Part shown: positions 226-34,782 of the stretch, one piece after another
Layout of the letters: every line of letters starts with the position of its first letter
How positions within the stretch are numbered: position 1 is the first letter of the stretch
Virus record (IMG/VR): IMGVR_UViG_3300035698_002897
Span: 1-39,825 of that record
Length of the DNA: 39,825 bases
Strand: one strand, 5' to 3'
Origin: a virus
The notes under the pieces: model-generated
Seen by the model: the letters and a program-made list of their open reading frames with translations, nothing else
Told to the model about the DNA's origin: nothing
The model's database searches: none
Translations under genes and position numbers: made by a program

Positions 226-254
226 TTGCCACATCTCGTGATATAAGGTATACT
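226..254 (+). promoter_or_regulatory. sigma70-type promoter ahead of the terminase region
   Basis: TTGCCA (226-231) and TATACT (249-254) are separated by exactly 17 bases, giving a predicted start near 261. The -10 is followed by TCATG, as in the promoter at 33137-33165, so the two share an 11-base TATACTTCATG core. It lies just before the hairpin at 267-308 and is the only recognisable promoter upstream of the long structural gene block. Confidence 0.6.
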
Positions 255-266
255 TCATGTATCTGA

Positions 267-308
267 ATAGCAGATCTGTCTATAAAGGCGGGTCTGCTAT
301 TTTTTTTT
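267..308 (+). terminator. Intrinsic terminator immediately after a promoter
   Basis: A 10-bp stem (267-276 with 291-300, one T-G wobble) encloses a 14-nt loop and is followed by nine T residues (300-308). The hairpin begins only about 6 nt downstream of the predicted start of the promoter at 226-254. It would either stop transcription after about 45-50 nt, making a tiny structured RNA, or act as a gate on the downstream terminase operon. The upstream side also carries an A-run-free 5' flank, so termination in the + direction is favoured. Confidence 0.65.
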
Positions 309-310
309 CG

Positions 311-975
311 ATGGATAAAGCAAAGAAGCTTTCACATAAATTAAGAGAGATAGTACACGAAGGGGATCTCGGACAGATCGATTGGCTGTATGTTGCTCGC
401 CGACTTCAGGAGGATGGTTGGGTAATCCAGGAGGGCTTAAGCCCAAGCACTATAAAGCATTAGAGTTATGGGAAGAGGGACTTCTTTCCATCAAAGAGAT
501 CGCGAAGGCCGTTGGGTTAGCTAAGGACACGATGTATGATATGTTCGAAGGTAACGCAGTCAAAGCGGGCCCCATAGCGCATCTCTTCAAATCCGAGCTG
601 GACAAAGTTACTCTCCGTTCTTCCTCAAAAGTTCGTCACCTCGTAAAAGATAATAAGAAACTTTCACTATATATGCTGAACGAACGTCTTAAAGTAATTC
701 GGGCCAAGAAGGAAAGGTCCGTCGTGGATACCACAGAGATTGTCAGTATTATGAATACCCTTAATAAGGCTACACCTGGCATAGAGATAGGGTCTCTACA
801 CGCCATGACGATACACAAGGGTATGACACCGGAGGAGTTAGTGTATGAGTTCCAACGTCTCAAAGCGCTTGCAGACAACTCATTTAACCCAAGAGGAGTT
901 CGCGAGTCTAAAGAGAGAGGATCAAATGGACTACCTAGGTTTACTGAACCAGGAAGTCCAGATACGGAAGAGTAG
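311..975 (+). pseudogene. terS: Terminase small subunit, split by a -1 frameshift
   Basis: The first part (ATG 311, reading MDKAKKLSHKLREIV) is open to a stop at 461-463. The rest of the protein is in the next frame back, from about 433 to 975. Joining them at 431-436 by restoring one G to the GGG run gives a continuous protein of about 221 aa. It contains a helix-turn-helix stretch (IKEIAKAVGLAKDTMYDMF), expected for the DNA-recognition domain of small terminase subunits. The position directly upstream of the large terminase fits. The ATG at 311 has no clear ribosome site because it follows the T-tract; an in-frame ATG at 257 would add residues encoded by the hairpin. An ATG at 382 in the second frame produces an implausible N-terminus. 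The assignment to TerS rests on position plus the HTH, not on catalytic motifs. Confidence 0.7.
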
Positions 976-12220: not shown

Positions 12221-12544
12221 ATGGCTATAGCTGAGAAAATATTAGGACAGTCCACAGTGCTAAGTGCAAGCAACTCTACAATCTACACGGTACCAGCTAG
12301 CACGACTACGGTGGTGAAGACCATCTGGATAACCAACACGACTACTTCTGATGCTACGGTTGAGCTTTGGTTAGGTGCTGCTGCTGGTGATGCTAATAAG
12401 TTAATGGACGGGGTTACAATTCCTGCTAGTGATTTTAAACAGGTCAGTACCTACATAGGTCTTGCCGCAACAGAAACAATACAGGCTAAGGGTAGTGTGA
12501 ATCTTGCATTATCTATAACAGCTTCAGGAGCTGAGATTACATAA
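12221..12544 (+). CDS. Small beta-sandwich virion protein, 107 aa
   Basis: The sequence has the recurrent phage form IYTVPASTTTVVKTIWITNT, then SDATVELWLGAAAGDAN, then a final SVNLALSITASGAEIT. These proteins are common beside fibres and decoration genes and contain no enzyme motif. ATG 12221 has AAGGAGAAG ahead. The stop TAA shares its final A with the next ATG (TAATG). Confidence 0.6.
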   Translation: MAIAEKILGQSTVLSASNSTIYTVPASTTTVVKTIWITNTTTSDATVELWLGAAAGDANKLMDGVTIPASDFKQVSTYIGLAATETIQAKGSVNLALSITASGAEIT

Positions 12545-33184: not shown

Positions 33185-33568
33185 ATGAGTATCGAAACAG
33201 TAAGGGCGAGCCGTAAGAAGTACTACGAAACCAACAAGGAAAAATGTCAAGCAGCTAACATGGCATGGCGGGGGGCGAACAAGGATAAGATAGCAGGGTA
33301 CAATAAAAAGTGGAGCCAAGAAAACAGAGGCATCAGGTATGAGATACAACAGAAGATGCGACATGCTCCAGATGGCAGGTGGAAGTACAATCAAAGGCAA
33401 AAAGCAAATAGGGCGGTTAAAAATGGTAAGATTATTAAAGTTGATGAGTGTCGATGTGGTAGTTCTCCCACTGAAATGCACCATAAAGACTATAGTAAGC
33501 CACTTGAAGTTACTTGGCTGTGCCGTTCTTGTCACAATGACGCTGACCGCTTGCGGAGGAATAGGTAG
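33185..33568 (+). CDS. HNH-like endonuclease, 127 aa
   Basis: A basic N-terminal half (about 1-85, probably DNA binding) leads to C89/C91, then H99-H100 with D102 (EMHHKDYSKPLEV), and C113/C116 with H117 (LCRSCHND). This is the compact HNH type that is very common in phages. A catalytic His pair is present, but the last catalytic His or Asn of classical HNH is only partly conserved, so activity is uncertain. AAAGGAGG precedes ATG 33185. The 3' end overlaps the lipoprotein frame by 65 nt. Confidence 0.75.
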   Translation: MSIETVRASRKKYYETNKEKCQAANMAWRGANKDKIAGYNKKWSQENRGIRYEIQQKMRHAPDGRWKYNQRQKANRAVKNGKIIKVDECRCGSSPTEMHHKDYSKPLEVTWLCRSCHNDADRLRRNR

Positions 33569-33704
33569 GACTGTAGTTATACATCCTATTGAGGGTTCAC
33601 ACATACAGAACATGAACGCTGACGAACCGTACACACCTGTCCGTGACGGGTGGTTTGTTTCAGACTTTTACATGGGTCAGGTCATGGACGCAAGTGTGGA
33701 ATAA
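33504..33704 (+). CDS. Small lipoprotein, 66 aa (o-spanin-like or virion-export candidate)
   Basis: From TTG 33504 the product reads MKLLGCAVLVTMTLTACGG, a type II lipoprotein signal peptide with lipobox LTAC and acylation at C17. The mature part ends YTPVRDGWFVSDFYMGQVMDA, a pattern seen in short phage lipoproteins. It is read in a different frame over the last 65 nt of the HNH-like gene, then extends 136 nt past it. There is no strong ribosome site near TTG, so coupled translation is likely. It could be an outer-membrane spanin subunit or an exclusion protein. The signal is clear; the role is inferred. Confidence 0.6.
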   Translation: MKLLGCAVLVTMTLTACGGIGRTVVIHPIEGSHIQNMNADEPYTPVRDGWFVSDFYMGQVMDASVE

Positions 33705-33716
33705 TTTAAAACTTTC

Positions 33717-33745
33717 TTGACAAACTCTTGGGTGTAGTGTAGACT
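33717..33745 (+). promoter_or_regulatory. Strong sigma70 promoter of the early operon
   Basis: A perfect -35 TTGACA (33717-33722), 17 bases, and -10 TAGACT (33740-33745). The expected start is near 33752. It is the best promoter in the window and lies 13 bases past the lipoprotein stop codon. Transcription would run into the leader and the terminator at 33829-33863 before reaching the nuclease gene. Confidence 0.75.
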
Positions 33746-33769
33746 TTTCTCATCTAAACAGGAGGTCAA

Positions 33770-33820
33770 GTGAAAAAAGTTTTTTACCCAAGCGCCACAG
33801 CACCCTCTATGTGCGGATGA
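33770..33820 (+). CDS. Candidate leader peptide, 16 aa
   Basis: AGGAGGTC (33760-33767) sits 4-5 nt before GTG 33770; the frame reads MKKVFYPSATAPSMCG and stops at TGA 33818-33820, 8 nt before the terminator stem. The arrangement of promoter, ribosome site, short ORF and terminator is what transcription attenuators look like. A short gcac/gtgc hairpin (33800-33803 with 33811-33814) could be a pause site. No run of one amino acid points to an inducer, so the sensed signal is unknown. The ORF could be coincidental. Confidence 0.4.
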   Translation: MKKVFYPSATAPSMCG

Positions 33821-33828
33821 TACGTTCT

Positions 33829-33863
33829 AGCCAAGCTGATATTCAGTTTGGCTTTTTTTATTT
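33829..33863 (+). terminator. Intrinsic terminator/attenuator before the early operon
   Basis: An 11-bp stem (33829-33839 with 33843-33853, one G-T wobble) with a 3-nt loop is followed by seven T residues (33853-33859), A, then TTT. It lies about 77 nt past the promoter start and just before the nuclease ribosome site. It must be bypassed for early gene expression, so antitermination or attenuation is expected. Confidence 0.8.
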
Positions 33864-33888
33864 CCCACAAACCCAGAAAGGGGGGGTC

Positions 33889-34782
33889 ATGTTAGAAATA
33901 AGCCATTCGTCAACAAGTATCGCTCGGGGGTGTTGGCAGAAATACTACTGGCACTACATCGAGAAACTCAAACCAAAAAGAACTTCCAGCGCCATGCAAT
34001 TAGGCTCCACAATTCACGAAGCTTTCGAGGAGTTTTACTCCGGTAATTCTGATGCCATTGTCCTCGAACACATCAAACAAAAGTACGGTAATCTTATCGG
34101 AGAGACTCAAGATATGGGTGATCAGGAGTTACTTGCGCTAGATTCCTATACTGCACAGGGCATGTGGGCATCGTACCCGTACAAAGACCGCTCCATGTTC
34201 GAAGAGATTGAGTGTGAGAAGGAGTTTTCTGTTACATTACCTGGCTTACGAGGGGTAAGGTTTGTCGGCAGGGTAGATTGGCTCGTTAAAATCGATGGTA
34301 GGTGGTGGGTAAGAGAGATGAAGACCACCGGTCTTGCCCCGAGACAGTTCGAAGGCAGGTGCCACACCTCAATGCAGGCCTCAGGCTATGTCTATGCCAT
34401 GCGAAAGCTTGGCTATGATGTGCAAGGTGTCCTCTATGATGTGGTCAAAAGACCCCTGCTCAGAAAGCGTCAGACAGAGCGTGTAAGCGACTTCGGCAAA
34501 CGAATAGTCCTCGACTACCAAGAGGACGCTAAGAAGCCTGAGAAGGAACGTAAGGCCTACATACAGCATACTGAGTACCGACCTCAGTACCAAGTAGACC
34601 AGTGGGTGGATTCACAGGTCAAGTTAACCAGAGAGATACGCTATCGTCGGAGAAAGAACGACTGGTTTCGTAACGCAGACCAGTGTTGGAACTTCAATTC
34701 ATTGTGTCCGTACGCTAAGCTCTGTCATGTTGAGAGAGCCGATCAGCTAACCAAGGACGCATTTTACGAGGAGGTAAAGTAA
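33889..34782 (+). CDS. PD-(D/E)XK nuclease with Fe-S-type cysteines (Cas4/RecB-like)
   Basis: 297 aa from ATG 33889, with a G-rich ribosome site. SHSSTS starts the protein, H43 lies in GSTIHEAFEEF, D130 in VGRVDWLV, and E143-x-K145 in WVREMKTTG complete the nuclease motif set. C15 and C266/C273/C279 form a C...C-x6-C-x5-C group like the 4Fe-4S clusters of AddB and Cas4-type nucleases. It would resect DNA ends for recombination. It heads the early operon together with the ATPase and SSB genes. The in-frame GTG at 33811 is rejected because it lies upstream of the terminator stem. Confidence 0.85.
   Translation: MLEISHSSTSIARGCWQKYYWHYIEKLKPKRTSSAMQLGSTIHEAFEEFYSGNSDAIVLEHIKQKYGNLIGETQDMGDQELLALDSYTAQGMWASYPYKDRSMFEEIECEKEFSVTLPGLRGVRFVGRVDWLVKIDGRWWVREMKTTGLAPRQFEGRCHTSMQASGYVYAMRKLGYDVQGVLYDVVKRPLLRKRQTERVSDFGKRIVLDYQEDAKKPEKERKAYIQHTEYRPQYQVDQWVDSQVKLTREIRYRRRKNDWFRNADQCWNFNSLCPYAKLCHVERADQLTKDAFYEEVK

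Follow-up and report, generated by a model that had tools for sequence, protein, structure and literature searches.

The window analysed here comprises positions 1–39,825 of IMG/VR virus record IMGVR_UViG_3300035698_002897. At 33717–34782 it carries the head of an early operon, with a promoter, a short leader containing a 16-codon open reading frame (ORF), a predicted intrinsic terminator and the gene for a PD-(D/E)XK Cas4-like exonuclease, which begins at the ATG at 33889. The same block includes, further downstream, genes for a Sak4-like annealing ATPase and a replication protein. The promoter, the AGGAGG ribosome site, the leader ORF, the 11-bp terminator and the nuclease operon had been picked out in an initial annotation of this DNA, and all are present. 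A second module, at 226–308, has a promoter directly upstream of the other strong terminator of the window and stands at the head of the terminase operon. The features of the two modules are collected in Table 1.

Table 1. Coordinates of the early and late promoter–terminator modules and of the first genes behind them
Feature	Position	Strand	Basis or remarks
Late promoter, TTGCCA-N17-TATACT	226–254	+	10/12 consensus positions; position conserved in relatives
Start-of-transcript element, ATCTGAATAG	261–270	+	Shared with the early promoter
Putative late-gate intrinsic terminator, 17-bp stem (265–302) and T-tract; overlaps the start element	265–308	+	Fold; gate in 30/41 segments
Presumed small terminase, judged by position; first well-supported late gene, with AGGAGG at 408 and a TTG start	418–975	+	Large terminase follows (PHROGs)
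Early promoter, TTGACA-N17-TAGACT	33717–33745	+	10/12 consensus positions; one of two TTGNCA-N17-TANANT sites in the window
Start-of-transcript element, ATCTAAACAG, common to the late promoter	33752–33761	+	Same spacing from the −10 as ATCTGAATAG at 261; family pattern ATCKARRCAR
Ribosome site of the leader ORF, AGGAGG	33760–33765	+	4-nt spacing, common among the genes of this phage
Leader ORF, 16 codons, VKKVFYPSATAPSMCG; probably translated, not conserved	33770–33820	+	Ribosome site; leaders of relatives
Putative early-gate intrinsic terminator, 11-bp stem (33829–33853) and T-rich tail	33829–33863	+	Fold compared with shuffles
Cas4-like PD-(D/E)XK exonuclease, first gene behind the early gate	33889–34782	+	PF12705, 5e-22; phrog_1218, 6.5e-25

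Two promoter–terminator modules

The rules used to recognize promoters and terminators were taken from E. coli and applied to phages whose host is not identified; by these rules each of the two promoters matches the consensus at ten of 12 positions. Promoter matches at 9/12 positions are, as a class, at the level of chance in the window (13 found, 12.5 expected). Only two sites on either strand have the form TTGNCA-N17-TANANT, and the only two terminators of the whole window with a stem of at least 9 bp and six T in eight positions lie directly behind them. Shuffled windows, scanned at a looser setting than this, yield zero or one terminator per strand. The early hairpin closes on a 3-nt loop and is followed by TTTTTTATTT; its folding energy is −15.6 kcal/mol (z = −6.3), compared with −24.1 kcal/mol (z = −7.8) for the late hairpin, and none of 200 shuffles was as good in either case.

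No good promoter was found between 33854 and the exonuclease ATG, nor at 303–420, where the best candidate matches at 8/12 positions with a 19-nt spacer. For this reason the genes behind both terminators would be reached only by polymerase that reads through. We use the term gate, in a broad sense, for the layout seen here: a promoter whose transcript meets an intrinsic terminator ahead of the first gene, and no second promoter downstream of that terminator. The late default transcript would be only about 48 nt long and its hairpin begins at about +5, so that no ORF fits into the late leader and a leader peptide cannot be what opens the late gate.

Several observations concern the surroundings of the modules. 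The large terminase is encoded as two ORFs, 845–1486 (ATPase part) and 1625–2389 (nuclease part), and the gap of about 140 nt between them may be a frameshift, an insertion or a real split. A tRNA-like stretch at 80–191, behind a promoter-like site of its own (44–72), has a 7-bp acceptor (ACGGGGA/TCCCCGT), a perfect T-arm, a TTCCA end and an abnormal middle of about 57 nt; neither ARAGORN nor Rfam reports a tRNA there, and ARAGORN found none in 33 relatives. The first 30 nt of the window resemble the starts of many relatives' contigs (L196, L197, L199, L202, L203, L205, L207, L211 and others), all of which begin at this place, the common sequence being CACC or CCCC ... CATATATA ... CCCC. This shared start looks like a physical genome end, and the window may be a complete linear genome. 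Ahead of the early promoter, a small ORF from the TTG at 33504 to 33704 overlaps the HNH gene (33185–33568) and carries a lipobox-like LTAC; it is possibly a spanin-like lipoprotein, and no family match was found for it.

The leader open reading frame

The GTG start codon of the leader ORF stands 4 nt behind its AGGAGG. This motif occurs 30 times on the same strand and three times on the other, and most copies precede genes. Since AGGAGG a few nucleotides before a start codon is the normal ribosome site of this phage, the ORF is probably translated. Its codon score is as low as that of 8% of true 16-codon gene pieces, and 20% of off-frame pieces score as high. The stop codon ends 8 nt before the terminator stem and the start codon is 59 nt from it. 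A further frame, from the ATG at 33817 that overlaps the leader stop (ATGA), is open through the terminator into the exonuclease, as it is in a fraction of 0.61 of shuffles, which is chance.

The initial annotation interpreted this arrangement as attenuation by a leader peptide. As a conserved mechanism that interpretation is not sustained. The ORF has no run of regulatory codons. Upstream of the terminator, only a small local hairpin competes for pairing with its 5' arm, no antiterminator structure was found, and the fold of the 5' leader domain is no better than that of shuffled sequences (p = 0.21). None of the relatives' early leaders has an ORF that both stops short of the stem and carries a ribosome site like that of the window, and the sister module ahead of the terminase leaves no room for one. 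The trp and his attenuators share the order of leader ORF, terminator and operon; they differ in having regulatory codons and an alternative antiterminator, and in the spacing of ORF and terminator, which is more than 20 bp in amino-acid attenuators and 8 nt here (PMC4824070).

A scan of IMG/VR with a peptide pattern gave 29 matches and no matching leader ORF in the contexts read. A small conserved Cys-rich protein (CPxFxxCSAxVCPL) is encoded in the early operons of relatives G002 and G005 (L249/L255 and L254), and the motif was not found in the window; kinship of the leader peptide with these proteins (as CPxxxCSAxVCPL) was rejected, the alignments being no better than shuffles (p = 0.35 and 0.51). 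We also discarded the idea that a leader frame reading through the terminator is a signal: such a frame is open in all four early leaders, and equally in 0.55–0.62 of shuffles.

Gates and start elements in related phages

The query that worked in the search for relatives was the C-terminal terminase ORF, which gave 52 loci, nearly all 52–88% identical, the nearest being L196 at 88%. With the exonuclease, Sak4, the portal or a 535-aa protein as queries only distant matches or none were obtained, and no relative came to light in two scans of bacterial and archaeal genomes. For the late gate we examined up to 700 nt upstream of the terminase in 41 non-redundant segments, the window included, some of which carry an identical hairpin (e.g. 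L200–L202 and L219/L220). A promoter followed by a hairpin and T-tract, mostly 6–19 nt after the −10, is present in 30 of the 41, compared with nine of 855 control segments of the same contigs and three of 340 shuffled left ends. Among the 11 segments without the gate are some that do not cover the site. A count of left ends gives 17/17, for contigs picked after the previous result, and 30/41 is the fairer figure. The sequence of the stems varies widely among the relatives; their position and the T-tract are kept. Several of the relatives have no space for a further promoter, since their T-tract passes directly into the ribosome site of the first late gene. In 1.36 Mb of unrelated contigs our first, strict promoter–terminator detector registered nothing, a zero that is not a base rate because the same detector also misses lambda pR'-tR'.

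The exonuclease is encoded, at 41–52% identity, in six of the 40 relatives' records searched. In three of these (L255, L256 and L257) the nearest strong promoter is 0.7–1.7 kb upstream of the exonuclease and a terminator lies 58–69 nt behind it. The corresponding distance in the window is 83 nt, so an early terminator stands 58–83 nt behind the promoter in four of seven exonuclease genomes. The remaining three relatives (L254, L258 and L259) have no clear early terminator, L254 and L259 having none at all. The idea that the terminator gates the early operon, also put forward in the initial annotation, thus gains support from the module heading that operon in three of six relatives, as well as from the empty stretch before the exonuclease. 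Of the peptide and stem that were to be looked for in relatives, the terminator recurs to this extent and the peptide does not. The 54 more distant exonuclease homologues checked (about 25% identity) are without the leader, and two have weaker hairpins upstream. In L258 (G010) the promoter stands directly before the exonuclease, and the leader behind it contains, at 12333–12431, two long inverted repeats of 11 and 12 bp, interleaved as A B A' B'; a large RNA pseudoknot could result from their pairing.

The two modules of the window have a further feature in common. Each promoter is followed, 6 nt after the −10, by ATCTRAAYAGSAG; 12 of 16 in-register positions are identical, a level reached in none of 5000 shuffles, and the early and late transcripts would begin with similar ATCTRAAYAG sequences at the same spacing. 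The family pattern ATCKARRCAR occurs near +1, at 8/10 positions or better, in 16 of 29 late promoters and in four of 290 control windows, a count that is descriptive rather than an independent test because the pattern was derived from the same sequences. The window, G002 and G005 also have it, at this level, in their early promoters. The early and late copies are alike within one genome: G002 has ATCGAAACAA in both promoters, and in G005 ATCGAGACAG is paired with ATCGAGATAG. A pattern scan of IMG/VR for promoter plus start element gave two matches, near the estimated chance level, neither followed by a terminator in the stretch read. One group of relatives (L215, 69–130; L221, 86–145; L222, 69–130; L218, 87–165) has AAGCGAAT as the first transcribed bases; pairing of these with ATTCGCTT, which lies 40–70 nt further on, could close a long 5' stem, and in L218 that stem encloses the terminator.

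Proposed opening of the gates

Our analysis favours the idea, which we hold to be probably correct, that antitermination, much as at lambda pR'-tR', opens two promoter-proximal intrinsic-terminator gates in the window. RNA polymerase would start at about 33752 and by default stop near 33860, giving a transcript of about 110 nt, and the exonuclease, Sak4 and replication genes would be made only when polymerase reads through. The same logic would apply at about 261–308 ahead of the terminase operon. The presence of a stop before the terminase in dozens of relatives, and before the nuclease in some, points to an antitermination switch and not to a leader peptide. Opening would most likely involve antitermination acting on the elongation complex, and the shared ATCKARRCAR element, at about +1 to +10, is the best candidate for the loading signal at which a factor or RNA might act. 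That the terminators work in the host and that read-through is regulated we infer from the sequence; it is possible that the terminators leak and the gate is weak, or that they also end the upstream operon.

There is precedent for phage operons gated by terminators (PMC9378689; PMC6606751). In lambda and phage 21 the promoter pR' fires into the intrinsic terminator tR' before the operon, and the downstream genes need Q-dependent read-through (PMC6606751). The present gates differ in that no −10-like pause element is seen at the start of either transcript (best match 3/6), no relative of Q is recognized and the late hairpin begins as early as about +5; in addition, the early operon has a gate of its own with this layout. 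Among the early ORFs searched against PHROGs and Pfam, no antiterminator was recognized and none matched Q; Q proteins are diverse, and several of these ORFs match nothing. The early recombination and replication genes of HK022 and lambda likewise lie behind terminators, opened through put and N-nut, respectively (PMC9378689). The put element, however, needs about 70 nt with two stem-loops, for which the late leader is too short and which the unremarkable fold of the early 5' domain does not suggest, and neither leader has a put-like domain or a boxA match above 7/12. Overall, the layout appears to be a variant of known promoter-proximal terminator gating, with two gates of like layout in one phage. 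Because N4-like phages use hairpin promoters, a virion RNA polymerase within the 2303-aa protein was considered; it was set aside, no family or structure match having been found.

Translation could instead open the early gate, and that gate only, as in the E. coli pyrBI attenuator, where a leader ORF lies near an intrinsic terminator and translation could block the hairpin (PMC4824070). A ribosome on the 16-codon ORF would then prevent the hairpin from forming, and read-through would report how closely translation follows the polymerase. The standard ribosome site and the 8-nt distance from stop codon to stem fit this idea, and in E. coli a terminator a few base pairs behind a stop codon is strongly repressed by the ribosome, tR2 almost fully (PMC4824070). 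Three of the four early leaders have a stop codon 0–8 nt ahead of the stem (expected 0.16, 0.08, 0.21 and 0.11 each), which is only a weak hint since two of these ORFs, in L256 and L257, have no ribosome sites. Against it, terminators within the first 100 bp of a coding region retain most of their efficiency unless the polymerase pauses (PMC4824070); with the stem 59 nt from the start codon and 8 nt behind the stop, translation could tune the early leader only if there is such a pause. No sign of a pause or of UTP sensing was seen; the ORF already ends before the stem is reached, open frames across the terminator occur at chance frequency, and the late gate has no ORF. We regard this explanation as unlikely; the leader ORF may adjust how much polymerase passes the early gate, but it is not what the two gates have in common.

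The terminators might also be ordinary operon ends, the stem at 33829 closing the late operon and that at 265 the early operon after circularization, with the upstream promoters incidental. Each does stand at a junction between gene blocks. Both junctions, however, have the order promoter then terminator, which is repeated with tight spacing in 30 of the 41 segments, and the genes behind would be left without a good promoter, so we consider this reading improbable. Less probable still, in our judgement, is that the product of the early promoter is a free-standing small RNA, an alternative raised in the initial annotation, or the 16-residue peptide, acting in trans. The unit would yield a discrete 110-nt RNA, and there is a weak Qrr-like match (Rfam RF00378). 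That match, at 26.2 bits, is far below the gathering threshold of 50, which nothing in the Rfam search reached, and rests mainly on the terminator stem; moreover, relatives conserve neither the sequence of the RNA nor the peptide, and no other promoter for the exonuclease was found.

Beyond antitermination at the two gates, we tentatively suggest, as a possibility that we hold to be somewhat less likely than not, that a single system unrelated to N, Q or put governs the early recombination and packaging operons across this phage family. It would be loaded at a new element, ATCKARRCAR, in the first ten transcribed bases, and the late hairpin would begin at about +5, so that the default transcript is hardly longer than the terminator itself.

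Most known examples of terminator gating in phage operons come from lambdoid phages. That a gate keeps its position across dozens of diverged uncultured phages, with stems of varying sequence, suggests that it is an old and general hold on phage operons. The start-of-transcript element and the early ORFs provide concrete candidates in the hunt for a new antitermination factor.
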